DNA of 22,554 nucleotides from a virus. A program made the translations under genes and the position numbers. The stretch lies in the IMG/VR virus record IMGVR_UViG_3300009142_000009, positions 1-22,554 of that record; one strand, written 5' to 3'. Below the pieces are notes generated by a model. It did no database searches, was not told the origin of the DNA, and was given only the letters and a program-made list of their open reading frames with translations. Below, piece after piece: positions 760 to 6,233 of the stretch; within the stretch, counting starts at the first letter, position 1; the number at the start of each line of letters is the position of its first letter.

Positions 760-2571
760 ATGGCTTTAAATTTTTTAACCGGATTAGACATAAAAGGGAA
801 TGTCGATCTAAACAAGAAAGAGCTGCAAAATGCAGTTATTCAAAACTTAGGCACGGCACCTTCAAGTCCTTTAGAAGGCCAGATATACTACGACACCGAT
901 GTAGATAAATTAAAGCTATATACTGCTGGTGGCTGGCTTACAATACCAGACGGTAATACAGCAGCAAATGATTTCTTAACGGGTTTATCTTTTAATGATG
1001 GCAATGGAATATTAACTGCTACAGTTTCAAATCAATCCGATGTAACTGTTGACTTAGACGGTAGGTACGCACTAGCGTCTTCTATACCATCTGTTGGCGA
1101 TGGAACATTGACGGTATCAGGATCTGGTGTTCTTGGCGGATCTGGAACTTTTACAGCTAATCAAACGGGTAACTCTTCTATATCAATATCACATGATAAT
1201 GTAACTAGAACCGACACAACTTCTGCAGTTAGTGGTAATTCATTCCCAGTAATTGACACTATTACAACTGATGTACACGGGCATATTACTGCTGTTAATG
1301 TAAAGACTCAAACTGTATCGGATGATGATACAACTTCTTTGCCTATAAAAAATTCAGGCGGCACAACTCAGTTTACTTCAACTGACGCCACTGGTTTAAG
1401 ATTTGAGGGCGGAACAAATGTAACTGTTGGTTTTACATCATCTGATCAAACGGTAAAAATAAACAGTACAGATCAATACCAAGGTACAGTTACGGGTGTA
1501 GGTACGGCTACTTCAGGTACAATAGCGATAGCGGGTACATCTGCTGTTCCTACTGTATCAACTAAAACAGCGGCTGTCGTTAATGGCGGTGCAGCATTAG
1601 CAACTGGAGATCAAATATATGATTTTGTTACAGCTCAAATTGGTAACATTCCTTCGGGGTTAGCTTTTGAGGGAAGCTGGGATGCTAGTTCTGGTAGTGC
1701 TCCTTCATCATCGCCAGCTAGTGGACAATTTTGGATTGTATCTGTAGACGGTTCAACAAGCTTATCTGGTATCACGGATTGGAAAATTGGTGACTGGGCT
1801 ATATATGTAAGTACAGGTGCAGGGACAGACGGATGGCAAAAAATAGATAACACATCTATATTATCAGGTAACGGAGTTGCTAATAGGGTAACGTTCTGGA
1901 GTGGAGCATCGTCTCTTACTAGTGATGCTGGTATGACATATAATGCATCATCTAATGCGTTGACTATTACTGGAGTAATGACTGCAGCTGGCGGAAATTC
2001 TACTAATTGGAATTCAGCTTATGCAGCAACAAACGCATTTACTACGGTTGGAGCGAACTTAACTACGTTAGCAAACCCTAACGCAATTAGATTTATAAAA
2101 ATAAATGCTGATAACACGGTAACAGCAAGAACAGCTGCTCAATTTAGAGCTGATATAGGGGCTGGTACTAGTAGCACAATCGGTACTGTAACGAGTATCG
2201 CGACTAGCGCACCAATAACGGGAGGGACCATAACTGATACTGGCACAATAGGAATATCTAATGCGACTGCAAGCGCCGTTGGTGCTGCAAGAGTAGCTGC
2301 TGGTACAGGTATTTCCGTAGCGGTTTCGAATGGTGTATTTACTGTGACAAACAACGACAGAAACTCACAAAGCACCCTTGCTATTAATGTCCCTGCAAAC
2401 GGGATTATTACACATGGTTTTGGCACAAAGGATGTTATAGTGCAATTGTTTGACGCAACTACAAACCAAACGGTATATGCAGATGTAAGCAGAGCTTCTA
2501 ATACTATTACAGTTTCTTATTCTACAGCACCAACAAATACAATAAGAGCCTTAATACAAAAGATAGGATAA
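760..2571 (+). CDS. long tail fibre protein
   Basis: This 603-residue protein reads as a classical phage tail fibre. The N-terminus contains the pattern NLGTAPSSPLEGQIYYDTD followed by KLKLYTAGGWLTIP, widely seen in fibre proteins. The middle is Gly/Thr/Ser-rich and repetitive (TVTGVGTATSGTIAIAG, GTVTSIATSAPITGGT), as in fibre shafts. Residues about 534-603 form a beta-rich end module with the same layout as the C-terminus of the preceding protein: THGFGTKDVIVQLFDA, then ADVSRASNTITVSYS. No cysteines are visible in the shaft. The gene starts 10 bases after the previous stop behind an A-run leader. It probably recognises the host surface; whether the end module or the shaft does so cannot be told from sequence. 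Confidence 0.8.
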   Translation: MALNFLTGLDIKGNVDLNKKELQNAVIQNLGTAPSSPLEGQIYYDTDVDKLKLYTAGGWLTIPDGNTAANDFLTGLSFNDGNGILTATVSNQSDVTVDLDGRYALASSIPSVGDGTLTVSGSGVLGGSGTFTANQTGNSSISISHDNVTRTDTTSAVSGNSFPVIDTITTDVHGHITAVNVKTQTVSDDDTTSLPIKNSGGTTQFTSTDATGLRFEGGTNVTVGFTSSDQTVKINSTDQYQGTVTGVGTATSGTIAIAGTSAVPTVSTKTAAVVNGGAALATGDQIYDFVTAQIGNIPSGLAFEGSWDASSGSAPSSSPASGQFWIVSVDGSTSLSGITDWKIGDWAIYVSTGAGTDGWQKIDNTSILSGNGVANRVTFWSGASSLTSDAGMTYNASSNALTITGVMTAAGGNSTNWNSAYAATNAFTTVGANLTTLANPNAIRFIKINADNTVTARTAAQFRADIGAGTSSTIGTVTSIATSAPITGGTITDTGTIGISNATASAVGAARVAAGTGISVAVSNGVFTVTNNDRNSQSTLAINVPANGIITHGFGTKDVIVQLFDATTNQTVYADVSRASNTITVSYSTAPTNTIRALIQKIG

Positions 2572-2599
2572 TAAAAATAATAAAATCTAATATACGTAT

Positions 2600-3340
2600 A
2601 TGAAGTTCTTCAGTGGCATTGACGTGGACAATAGAACACTGTTCACAGACACAGCAAATGATAGGGTTGGTATTAACATTACTAACCCTTATGCTACCCT
2701 AGCTGTTGGCGGTAACGCCATCGGAGGAGGTGCGGCTACTTGTCACTCTGACGATGGTATAGCCTGGGGAGTAGATTCAACTGCTAAAACTGAGAAAGCT
2801 AATTTTGCTTTTGGTTTAGGGGTGGTAACCCCCTGGGGTAATGACTCTAACGATAAAGTAGCAAACGGAGCAGGGCAATTTGCGTGTGGTCTTTTCAATG
2901 CTGATAAAATTAAAGCAATTCACAGGTTTTCAGTAGGCAATGGAGCAAATGATGATACCAGACATACCGCTTTTTGTGTTACAAGCAAAGACTATGTAGG
3001 TATTAATAAATCAAACCCCACTTACAATCTAGACGTATCTAAAGACGCTAGAGTAGATGGAACTGTTACTGCTAGTAATTTTGTTTTATCTTCAGATAAG
3101 AATTTAAAATACAATATAAAAGATCTAATCGCAGAGCCTATAAAAGTAAACTGGAAATCTTTCTTTTTTAATAATAACGAAGACGATTATAGAACGGGAG
3201 TTATAGCTCAAGAATTAGAAAAAGATCATCCTGAGTTTGTATCCGAAGATAAAGAAGGGATGAAGACTGTTAAATATATAGATCTATTAGTGGCAAAAAT
3301 AGCAGAATTAGAGCTTCGCTTATCAAAACTTGAAAAGTAA
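2600..3340 (+). CDS. fibre/spike protein with S74 intramolecular chaperone domain
   Basis: This 246-residue protein combines a short fibre or spike part with a C-terminal intramolecular chaperone of the peptidase S74 type. The N-terminal MKFFSGIDVDNRTLFTDTAN and repeats such as RVGINITNP and YVGINKSNP are typical of fibre sequence. The chaperone begins near residue 163 with SSDKNLKYNI. Ser165 and Lys170 have the S-x4-K spacing of the self-cleavage dyad known from endosialidase tailspikes. It continues with YRTGVIAQELEKDHPEFV and ends in a leucine-heptad helix (LVAKIAELELRLSKLEK) that would drive trimerisation. In this family the chaperone trimerises the fibre and is then released by autocleavage. 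The stop overlaps the next start (TAATG). Confidence 0.88.
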   Translation: MKFFSGIDVDNRTLFTDTANDRVGINITNPYATLAVGGNAIGGGAATCHSDDGIAWGVDSTAKTEKANFAFGLGVVTPWGNDSNDKVANGAGQFACGLFNADKIKAIHRFSVGNGANDDTRHTAFCVTSKDYVGINKSNPTYNLDVSKDARVDGTVTASNFVLSSDKNLKYNIKDLIAEPIKVNWKSFFFNNNEDDYRTGVIAQELEKDHPEFVSEDKEGMKTVKYIDLLVAKIAELELRLSKLEK

Positions 3341-3780
3341 TGGGGGTGCCAAACACATCAACTTTTACAATGGAAGGTGTTAAGAAAGTATTAAATACAC
3401 TTCAAAACTCGTTAGTAGATTTTTTCAAAGCAGCGGACACTTCTAGGTTTGATCCAGAGTATTCAGGAAACAAAGACAGCTTATTAAACTTTAGGAATTA
3501 CGGCAACCTACCTATTTGGAACCCAATAGATGCTTGGGGGGTAGAGAGTGTATTTACTTATAAAAATTGCGACAGAAATTTAGATCAAGTAATCTATTTT
3601 AGATCAACTGGAACTGAACCTAGTATAGGAGACGACGTATCTTCGTCAAATCAAAGCTTTGTTGCGGTGCTTCCTGGATTTTGGACAGTAAAAACTCCAG
3701 GGGTCAATGCAATACTTGAAATACAAATGACGAGCAAAGGACAAACCACTGTAGTTTCAAAACAATATTGTATCATGTAA
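3340..3780 (+). CDS. conserved phage protein, probably fibre-associated
   Basis: I do not recognise a function for this 146-residue protein. It begins MGVPNTSTFTMEGVKKVLN and contains DSLLNFRNYG, a pattern I recall from small proteins beside fibre genes in Bacteroidota phages. The first 40 residues look helical, and the rest looks beta-rich, ending in MTSKGQTTVVSKQYCIM. There is no signal peptide or membrane segment. Its ATG shares a base with the stop of the S74-chaperone fibre gene, so the two are probably translationally coupled, and its product may join the same structure. A structural or fibre-assembly role is inferred from position only. Confidence 0.65.
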   Translation: MGVPNTSTFTMEGVKKVLNTLQNSLVDFFKAADTSRFDPEYSGNKDSLLNFRNYGNLPIWNPIDAWGVESVFTYKNCDRNLDQVIYFRSTGTEPSIGDDVSSSNQSFVAVLPGFWTVKTPGVNAILEIQMTSKGQTTVVSKQYCIM

Positions 3781-3856
3781 GTCATTACAGTTAATTACCC
3801 ATAATATTAAGTAATAATATTCATATAACCAAATGTCAAATTAAAAACCAAAACCA

Positions 3857-4171
3857 ATGACACTTTATTACCAGACTAATTCGTGGAGTAGTCAATCACA
3901 AGAAAAAGAAAATCGTTTAAAACTATGGACTCATTTAGTCAACAAGGCAAACTGGAGAATAGTGCAATTAGAAAACGGTTATTACCAAACAGAACACAAA
4001 GATATAAGCTGTAACTGTGACCCGGAAAAAGATGTTTGCTGTGAAAAATGGCACGATATAACTAGAAGGGAAACACTAGAGGCAGCAGAAACTTCTATAG
4101 ATAAAACTATAGAACATTACAATAACAGAATACAATTCATAAAAGGACCAAAGGTTGTAAAGACCTTTTAA
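3857..4171 (+). CDS. small conserved phage protein with cysteine cluster
   Basis: This 104-residue protein has no assigned function. Its core, NWRIVQLENGYYQTE and TRRETLEAAETSIDKTIEHY, ending GPKVVKTF, resembles a family I recall from many marine phages. The C-terminal half should be a long helix. Between them sits a short cysteine-rich insert with Cys52, Cys54, Cys61 and Cys62 (CNCDPEKDVCC), which could hold a metal ion. The 76 bases upstream contain an AT-only inverted repeat (3803-3809 with 3815-3821). The end of the gene holds an inverted repeat, AAAGGT at 4150-4155 with ACCTTT at 4163-4168, which could act as a weak terminator before the RNA region. Confidence 0.7.
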   Translation: MTLYYQTNSWSSQSQEKENRLKLWTHLVNKANWRIVQLENGYYQTEHKDISCNCDPEKDVCCEKWHDITRRETLEAAETSIDKTIEHYNNRIQFIKGPKVVKTF

Positions 4172-4200
4172 ATTAAACTGCCATTTTTCAACACTTCAGC

Positions 4201-4397
4201 AGGGGAGCGTGCCCCAGGCGCTGTAACCTTACATGGTTGGCAGTCTAAACTTTCAGAGAGCGTGACCGTAAGATCCCAAACTCGCCTACGAATAGCCAAC
4301 TAGTTTACCCTGCGGGGTATACTAGCTCATCTCTTGGCGGATGAGATTCTATTGGGGCTTGTCAGTAAGACACAGGTTGCGCTCCGAGGGGTTTTTT
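4201..4397 (+). ncRNA. unidentified structured RNA upstream of groEL
   Basis: No good reading frame fills the 248 bases between the flanking genes. By hand count 4201-4380 is about 52% GC, against about 28% at 4081-4140 and 35% at 4441-4500. Visible helices: 4204-4210 with 4379-4385, closing the whole element; 4211-4215 with 4354-4358; 4216-4220 with 4283-4287; a strong hairpin 4300-4310 with 4315-4325 (one mismatch, TGCG loop); 4326-4331 with 4340-4345; and 4360-4363 with 4369-4372. GCCAAC at 4295-4300 can pair with GTTGGC at 4236-4241, or its GCCAA with TTGGC in the loop at 4334-4338, so pseudoknots or a switch are possible. T6 at 4392-4397 may mark an RNA end or an attenuator, 22 bases before the groEL ATG. 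It does not match tRNA, tmRNA, RNase P RNA or a riboswitch I can recall. Confidence 0.6.
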
Positions 4398-4419
4398 AAT
4401 AAAATCTAAATTAAATATA

Positions 4420-5976
4420 ATGGAATACAATAATCCTAATGAGATTGTAAAAACTCTCACTTTTGGTGATACTGCCAAAAAAGAAATAATGCAAGGAGTC
4501 GAAAAATTAGCAAGCGCAGTAAAGAGCACCTTAGGTGCTTCTGGAAAATGCGTAATTTATGAAGACGCCCTTGGAAGACCGGTTATAACAAAAGACGGTG
4601 TAACCGTTGCAGACAGCGTAGTCTTATTACATCCGGTTGAAAACATAGGTGCCACTCTTATAAAAGAAGCGGCCAATAACACAGTTAAGGAGGCTGGCGA
4701 CGGCACAACAACAGCAACCGTGTTAGCTGACTCACTATTAAAAATAGCTAACGAAAAATTAAATGAAGCAGAAGTTAGAGACATTAAAGCAGGCATTCTT
4801 AGTTGTGCTGATAAAATTAAAGTATATCTTGATAAGACCAGTACTCCAGTTAAAGGCGCTATGCTTAAAAATGTTGCTATTATTAGCTGCAACAACGACG
4901 AAAAGCTTGGAACCAAAATTGGAGAAGCTTACGAGAAAGTTGGCCCTAATGGCGTTGTACTAATGGAAGAGTCTGAGACGAATGAGACGTATGTTGATTT
5001 TGTCGAAGGTGTGCAGTTCGATTCTAAAATCAGATCTAATCACTTGACCACAGACAAAGATAAAGGTACCGCCACCCTGGAGAATCCTATGGTTCTTATT
5101 GTGTCTTCTCCTATACCTAATATTAGGAGAATACAAAATGTGCTTGAGCACGTAGTAAAGAACAAGCGTAGTTTGCTAATTGTAGCGGAGGTTGAACAGC
5201 AGCCATTTGCAACCTTAGTAGCCAATAAGGTGAAAGGGAACATTAAAGTAAACATCGTGGATCCCCCAGGCTTTGGACCAACACGTAATGAATCTATAGA
5301 GGACTTAGCGATATTAACAAACGCCACAGTTATAAACGAGGAGTTAGGGGACGATTTAGACTTGATAGATATATCAGTACTAGGAGAAGCCATAAAGTCC
5401 GTTACGGATGATAAAAACACTGTTATACAGGTTTCAGAAGGCAACAAAGAATTAGAGCAAAGAATAGAACTAGTAAAAGCAAAAATGAAGAATGAAACAA
5501 ACCCATTCTTTGTTAAAAAGCTAGAACAACGTTTGTCTATGTTAACCGGAAGCGTTGGCATAATAAAAGTAGGAGCAGACTCTAAGGTAGAGTTAAAAGA
5601 AAAGAAAGATAGAGTTGAAGACGCTATATATGCGACAAAAGCTGCTTATAAAGAAGGTATTGTTGCTGGAGGAGGAGTTGCTTTGTTAAATGCTTCTAAT
5701 AAGATAAAACCGTCTAATAAAGGAGAAGAGGCTTTACTTGAAGCAATTAGAGCTCCATATTATACAATATTAGATAACGCTGGTATTGTTGAAATAAAAA
5801 AACAAACAGTAAAAAATAGAGGAATAGACGTTAAGACCGGTAAGGAAGTTAACATGCTTAAAGCAGGTATTATAGATCCTGTATTGGTTACAAAGTCTGC
5901 TCTTAAAAACGCAGTTAGTGTTGTTACAACAATAATTTCAGCTGATTGTGTAATTAGTAATAAAAGATTAGCATAA
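4420..5976 (+). CDS. groL: phage-encoded GroEL (type I chaperonin)
   Basis: This 518-residue protein is a full-length GroEL-family chaperonin, the ATP-driven ring that folds proteins in an enclosed chamber. Diagnostic signatures are TLGASGK (37-43), ITKDGVTVA (56-64), GDGTTTATVLA (93-103) and RVEDAIYATKAA with VAGGGVALL (398-422). The ATPase acidic residues are kept: Asp59, Asp94 and Asp401, equal to E. coli 52, 87 and 398. The apical domain is divergent. Positions equal to E. coli Tyr199, Tyr203, Phe204, Leu234, Leu259 and Val264 read Ile, His, Leu, Gln, Phe and Ala, so clients or the lid are probably bound differently. The C-terminal Gly-Gly-Met tail of bacterial GroEL is missing. The gene follows the structured RNA and overlaps groES (TAATG). 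Folding of phage virion proteins is the likely purpose, by inference. Confidence 0.95.
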   Translation: MEYNNPNEIVKTLTFGDTAKKEIMQGVEKLASAVKSTLGASGKCVIYEDALGRPVITKDGVTVADSVVLLHPVENIGATLIKEAANNTVKEAGDGTTTATVLADSLLKIANEKLNEAEVRDIKAGILSCADKIKVYLDKTSTPVKGAMLKNVAIISCNNDEKLGTKIGEAYEKVGPNGVVLMEESETNETYVDFVEGVQFDSKIRSNHLTTDKDKGTATLENPMVLIVSSPIPNIRRIQNVLEHVVKNKRSLLIVAEVEQQPFATLVANKVKGNIKVNIVDPPGFGPTRNESIEDLAILTNATVINEELGDDLDLIDISVLGEAIKSVTDDKNTVIQVSEGNKELEQRIELVKAKMKNETNPFFVKKLEQRLSMLTGSVGIIKVGADSKVELKEKKDRVEDAIYATKAAYKEGIVAGGGVALLNASNKIKPSNKGEEALLEAIRAPYYTILDNAGIVEIKKQTVKNRGIDVKTGKEVNMLKAGIIDPVLVTKSALKNAVSVVTTIISADCVISNKRLA

Positions 5977-6233
5977 TGAAAGCAATTAATTATTACTTAA
6001 TAGTAGACAAAATAAAAGAAGCTCCTAAAAAAGTAGCAGGCTTAGAGCTGACTGAAAAGCAAAACTCTGAAGTTCGATACTTAAGAGCAGAAGTTATAAG
6101 TGTAGGTGAGAATGTGCCTATGATAAAAACAGGCGATATAGTCAGATATGACAAACACGCTGGTCACGGTATAGAATGGAAAGATAAATTATATTATGTT
6201 TTAAAAGCTCCCGATGTAGTCATTATAGAATGA
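5976..6233 (+). CDS. groS: phage-encoded GroES co-chaperonin
   Basis: This 85-residue protein is a GroES-type lid for the chaperonin encoded just upstream. It aligns along its whole length: the first strand INYYLIVDKIKE; a mobile loop VAGLELTEK whose Leu23-Glu24-Leu25 corresponds to the Ile-Val-Leu GroEL-binding tripeptide of E. coli; then RAEVISVGE, IKTGDIVRYD, and a closing YYVLKAPDVVIIE. Between ISVGE and TGD it is about nine residues shorter than E. coli GroES, so the roof hairpin is reduced. The T4 co-chaperonin gp31 also lacks that roof, which enlarges the chamber. The start overlaps the groEL stop and its stop overlaps the next ATG (ATGA), so the genes are probably co-translated. Pairing with the phage GroEL rather than the host one is inferred. 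Confidence 0.9.
   Translation: MKAINYYLIVDKIKEAPKKVAGLELTEKQNSEVRYLRAEVISVGENVPMIKTGDIVRYDKHAGHGIEWKDKLYYVLKAPDVVIIE

Follow-up and report, generated by a model that had tools for sequence, protein, structure and literature searches.

GOLLD RNAs are frequent in phages or prophages. GOLLD, ROOL and OLE are described as large, ornate RNAs of phages and bacteria (PMC12286853). The element reported here, which we call family F1, resembles these three in being complex and pseudoknotted and in having a role that is little known or not assigned; it differs in size (218 nt, against approximately 400–800 nt) and in being without an Rfam match. F1 represents a phage structured-RNA family outside all Rfam 15 models, with a fold that is backed by compensatory changes, and the site that it occupies beside a phage chaperonin gene accommodates small reading frames and two or more RNA families that are apparently unrelated.

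Genomic context of the element

The stretch of DNA analysed, hereafter the window, is an IMG/VR record of 22,554 bases from a marine phage. It encodes a terminase, a portal and other head proteins, and the terminase resembles those of Flavobacterium 'elemo' and Cellulophaga phages (44–62% identity for the best matches). On the + strand, a promoter-like motif is followed by a small gene, the RNA element, groEL and groES:

3811–3819, + strand: GTAATAATA, a phage motif that resembles a promoter, ahead of the small gene
3857–4171, + strand: small gene (open reading frame of 104 aa, function not assigned), directly upstream of the element
4177–4394, + strand: structured RNA element of family F1, two domains, approximately 218 nt, from the consensus fold with compensatory changes and from energy folds
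4420–5976, + strand: groEL chaperonin (PF00118, phrog_5725)
5976–6233, + strand: groES co-chaperonin (PF00166, phrog_3188)

The small gene is without a Pfam or PHROG match and is present in 59 IMG/VR contigs. The gene-free stretch between it and groEL (4172–4419, 248 nt) is the only one of that length in the window, and positions 4201–4400 have a GC content of 51%, the maximum for any 200 nt of the window, compared with 37% for the record and 29–37% for the neighbouring sequence. The original prediction, made from the window alone, had described a long gene-free, sharply GC-rich stretch upstream of groEL and groES, and was right on all of these points. The 5′ boundary that it had set at 4201 has to be moved to approximately 4177, because helix P0 begins there, and the element is larger than had been proposed. 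The F1 RNA spans the gap from 5 nt past the small gene's stop codon, the distance that separates this codon from P0, to 25 nt short of the groEL start.

The GTAATAATA motif, or its general form GTAATRATA, also occurs at positions 369 and 17035 of the window, and it is strand-biased (14:1; 0.081 versus 0.006 per kb), with a constant spacing to the starts of genes. It lies 42–65 nt upstream of 25 of the 39 groEL genes that have no small gene before them, and at loci that bear the small gene it never lies between that gene and groEL. GTAATRATA is therefore a candidate phage promoter. Motif and terminator scans found neither a promoter nor a terminator belonging to the element itself. As no motif separates the small gene from groEL, the element is predicted to lie inside the operon transcript, without a promoter of its own.

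Known RNA classes, coding potential and further copies

The prediction that the element is a GC-rich, pseudoknotted RNA of no catalogued class, directly upstream of groEL, has held. A search of the window against Rfam 15, including introns, riboswitches, ribozymes, 6S, RNase P, GOLLD, ROOL and HEARO, gave no match at the gathering score, and neither positions 4150–4430 nor the homologue described below matched any Rfam 15 family at E≤10, an outcome in favour of the prediction. ARAGORN found no tRNA or tmRNA at the element. A conserved reading frame had been named as evidence that would speak against an RNA; no frame with a start codon is common to the window and the homologue, and the one look-alike frame within the element is without a start codon and has more amino-acid-changing than silent differences.

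When three stretches of the element served as exact patterns to scan IMG/VR, only near-identical copies and chance matches came up, and BLASTN against isolate phages and plasmids gave no match. A groEL-anchored search of 160 loci found the element only in copies of the same phage, with no further F1 homologue, and brought to light the second RNA family, F2, described below. Models R2 and R3, run on loci and on 100 whole phage records, had no match past the homologue; the element is single-copy per record, with no copy elsewhere in the 100 records. A pattern scan of GTDB genomes produced ten matches of 17–18 bases only, in unrelated archaea and bacteria, which we rejected.

A divergent homologue supports the fold

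Anchoring the search on the small gene located one divergent F1 homologue, in a 47.7-kb contig of a related phage (L282), where it occupies the corresponding site. A covariance model built from the window and a near-identical copy, with L282 excluded, recovers L282 with an E value of 1.7e-5. The two inserts are approximately 63% identical with gaps counted, compared with 95% for groEL and 77% for the small gene, and the F1 fold is based on these two independent sequences, the other copies being near-identical.

None of the 37 tested pairs, among them those of the pseudoknot, is lost in any of the three distinct sequences, and nine of the 37 have changed on both sides; none of 500 shuffles was comparable and slid controls gave 0–1. 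The pair test used a MAFFT alignment (A5) that was not fitted to structure. The 37 pairs were picked from folds of the same sequences, which biases the shuffle figures in favour of the fold and leaves the doubly changed pairs unaffected. By compensatory base changes beyond controls, F1 is a structured RNA, and such change implies selection for its fold. The helices are as follows:

4177–4244, + strand: 5′ domain, closed by the 7-bp helix P0 (ACUGCCA 4177–4183 with UGGCAGU 4238–4244)
4195–4226, + strand: P1a (4195–4200 with 4220–4226) and P1b (GGGG 4202–4205 with CCCC 4212–4215)
4247–4394, + strand: P2a (AAACUUU 4247–4253 with GGGGUUU 4388–4394), an outward extension of P2; probability 0.43
4258–4384, + strand: P2, 10 bp, closing the 3′ domain (GAGCGUGACC 4258–4267 with GGUUGCGCUC 4375–4384); probability 0.97–1.0
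4290–4349, + strand: P4 (GAAU 4290–4293 with AUUC 4346–4349), with covariation
4295–4338, + strand: pseudoknot (single-stranded GCCAA 4295–4299 with UUGGC 4334–4338, in the P6 loop)
4300–4325, + strand: P5 hairpin with a UGCG loop and covarying pairs; z −4.7 jointly with P6
4326–4345, + strand: P6 hairpin (CUCAUC-UCUUGGCG-GAUGAG), with four of six pairs doubly changed in L282

The closing helices of both domains are found in the best energy folds of the window and L282 computed separately. In L282, P0 is formed from other letters and has nine pairs (UUUGAGUAG/CUACUCAAA), and P2 (GAGCGUAUCC/GGGUACGCUC) carries one double and two single changes, most pairs of P2a being retained. The P5 stem is longer in L282 around an unchanged UGCG loop, and P6 becomes CCUUAC-AUUUGGCG-GUAAGG; all five pseudoknot pairs are identical, although the P6 stem that surrounds them has changed. 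The best energy fold of L282 is without P6, which has a probability of 0.17 when the pseudoknot is left out. P4 is supported by covariation, as L282 has GCAC/GUGC with two double changes, yet energy alone does not predict it in the window (0.01). Support from the energy ensemble of the full window sequence is weak for P1a (0.19), in which one C-G pair has become U-A, and for P1b (0.31), and P3 is ambiguous, pairing as UCCC/GGGG in the window and as CUCGUGCC/GGGUGCGAG in L282. On this comparison, the predicted helices that we regard as supported are P0, the 10-bp P2, the hairpins P5 and P6, and the pseudoknot 4295–4299/4334–4338.

The two strong hairpins had been foreseen at exactly these coordinates, and they fold well beyond chance: positions 4298–4347 reach −22.8 kcal/mol (z −4.7), with none of 1000 shuffles as good, and the 3′ domain (4256–4387) reaches z −3.4, again with none of 1000 as good. 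The compensatory changes among homologues that the prediction had called for are present in the fold (the nine doubly changed pairs), and there are none in the closing helix that it had drawn. That helix (4204–4210 with 4379–4385) and an inner helix (4211–4215 with 4354–4358) consist of complementary letters, but L282 keeps only four of seven and three of five pairs, respectively, and both have a pair probability of approximately 0. A fold that uses them costs 5.6 kcal/mol above the best fold, in which 4258–4267 pairs with 4375–4384 instead. The proposal that GCCAAC (4295–4300) has two mutually exclusive partners stands as far as the window is concerned; L282 keeps the loop partner at 4334–4338 alone, whereas the other (4236–4241) retains two of six pairs.

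The small-gene/groEL junction in related phages

Related phages provided 132 distinct junctions between the small gene and groEL, of which 113 are empty, three hold F1, nine hold a second RNA family, F2, and seven hold small reading frames. The empty junctions are AT-rich gaps of 18–42 nt. The small reading frames at the seven other junctions are AT-rich as well. Five of these frames, which apparently encode short membrane peptides, run across the small gene's stop codon; such frames, approximately 40 aa long, are seen in L136, L152, L182, L184 and L300. As 113 of the 132 junctions are empty, F1 is dispensable for groEL expression in this phage family and, with the site mostly empty or filled by other cargo, the RNA is no general requirement for phage groEL expression.

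The F2 copies, identified by their 3′ hairpin, lie in sense orientation at this site, ahead of groEL:

L098, 8934–9028: F2 RNA
L095, 2483–2577: F2 RNA
L099, 8721–8815: F2 RNA
L100, 2852–2944: F2 RNA
L214, 1299–1395: F2 RNA
L116, 1383–1475: F2 RNA
L012, 4879–4978: F2 RNA
L023, 444–535: F2 RNA, weaker member
L097, 6078–6167: F2 RNA, weaker member

F2 is like F1 in site, sense orientation and GC richness, and unlike it in length (approximately 95 nt), sequence and fold. Its conserved features are an internal loop (GUGUACU...AGGAAC) and the 3′ hairpin ACUC-GCGAA-GAGU, of which the GNRNA-type pentaloop (GCGAA) resembles a boxB loop. Covariation in F2 is thin, with two doubly changed pairs that 33 of 500 shuffles matched, and the consensus fold obtained when all members were aligned with MAFFT (A1) was poor; the case for F2 as a putative RNA is made more by position, sequence conservation and exchange than by covariation. 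F2 is without an Rfam match above threshold; the reverse strand of one F2 RNA faintly matched c4-2 (18 of 41 bits, E 0.16), which we took as chance. Model R1 of F2, with filters off, had no match to the window element or to L282, and the window-element models had none to the F2 loci, so that the two families, whose models do not cross-match, are apparently unrelated. Every RNA at the site has the orientation of groEL, and its 3′ end lies 22–33 nt ahead of the groEL start codon (22–29 nt for F2). In L015 and L303, where the junction is otherwise empty, the 42-nt gap before groEL contains CGCTGCTAGCAAAGAGTT or a close variant of it, apparently left over from the 3′ hairpin of F2.

Presence and absence alternate between close relatives. 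The site is empty in the relative L002, with flanks that are 77–91% identical, and L116 is occupied while L117 and L118 are empty despite approximately 94% identity downstream. The flanks of L012 and L100 are 93% and 97% identical, and their F2 RNAs only 77%, with 34 gap positions; between L100 and L098 the flanks are 81% and 74% identical, and the RNAs 91%. These identities indicate that F2 RNAs have been exchanged independently of both flanks. The window and L282 are approximately 91% identical across most of the record, and the RNA is the fastest-changing piece. It lies at the edge of a recombination block, the tail-fibre cassette (1102–4390, 72–88% identical to L282), and identity rises to 95–97% at the 3′ edge of the element. 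A Peptidase_S74 intramolecular chaperone is encoded within this cassette, at 2600–3340.

Discussion

Taken as a whole, these sequence comparisons mark the junction between the small gene and groEL as a cargo hot spot within the late operon of a phage family that has Flavobacterium and Cellulophaga phages among its relatives. Our preferred reading, to which we give a probability of roughly 0.5, is that F1 is an accessory RNA cargo module of that operon, one that is probably cut out and then acts independently. We infer its transcription, release, partner and effect along the following lines. F1 would be transcribed within an operon that starts at or before the motif at 3811, and its compact fold would then be released by nucleases, or protected within the late transcript. 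The RNA would then act by itself in the infected cell; the most plausible mode is binding to a protein of the host or the phage, with host takeover, counter-defence and exclusion of rivals as candidate roles. We propose a role in trans solely from the population pattern, as such a role would fit patchy presence, fast change and exchange. The broader proposal, that the site is a locus for interchangeable structured-RNA cargo at which unrelated families alternate, are exchanged, change fast with their fold kept and act in trans against host or rivals, is put forward tentatively, as less likely than not.

The main rival is a cis-acting leader of groEL-groES that controls translation, or a processing site that protects the 5′ end of the mRNA, such that the chaperonin would be made at a different level or time than the product of the small gene. 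Position and orientation are as such a leader would have them: F1 fills the intercistronic gap, ends like F2 within 22–33 nt of the groEL start, and has no promoter-like motif between the small gene and groEL. The two P3 partners, which exclude each other, would permit a switch, as would the alternative fold (+5.6 kcal/mol). In these respects F1 resembles structured mRNA leaders and processed intercistronic RNAs, directly upstream of groEL inside an operon. It is unlike structured leaders in being missing from most relatives and in matching no Rfam riboswitch or leader; F1 is always upstream of groEL where present, but groEL does without any such RNA at 113 of the 132 junctions. Small reading frames occupy the same gap in other phages, the RNA diverges between the window and L282 along with the tail-fibre side, high identity beginning only at its 3′ edge, and F1 is larger and more complex than a stabiliser or processing hairpin requires. 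A leader would be expected in more than one tenth of the family, yet the behaviour of the site is that of a hot spot for small RNA or peptide cargo; we therefore prefer an accessory RNA, and consider a leader doubtful, if a genuine possibility.

A small mobile or selfish RNA-coding element with no phage function, such as the relic of an intron, of a ribozyme-type element or of a transposon end, would account for clean presence and absence in close relatives, exchange between backgrounds and the reuse of one site. We consider it unlikely: each record has a single copy, with none elsewhere in the 100 phage records, plasmids or isolate phages; no group I or II intron or other Rfam family matches at E≤10; compensatory change means selection for the fold; and ordinary recombination in the flanking genes can account for the exchange.

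A transcription terminator or attenuator before groEL is already largely refuted and very improbable. The T6 tract at 4392–4397 does follow GC-rich sequence, but the nearest stem ends 7 nt before it, and the intrinsic terminator scan finds none there. The tract had also been taken as a landmark of the 3′ end, a role that it loses with its absence from L282, which has AAAATAAAA in its place; F2 RNAs have no T tract either. Least probable of all is a chance fold of a GC-rich insert with no RNA function, for although the whole-element z-score is modest on its own (−2.0 to −2.5; for 4175–4396, −75.5 kcal/mol, z −2.5, 2 of 200 shuffles), nine pairs are doubly compensated and none is lost, against 0 of 500 shuffles.

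If F1 is accessory RNA cargo, as we favour, a close parallel may be the cargo genes known as phage 'morons', which it resembles in patchy presence, in exchange that is independent of the flanks and in the alternative cargo found at one site. It is unlike those genes in that the cargo is an RNA, for which neither a separate promoter nor a separate terminator is evident. The locus thereby raises the question of whether exchangeable non-coding RNAs serve phages as accessory weapons or regulators in a manner comparable to accessory proteins.
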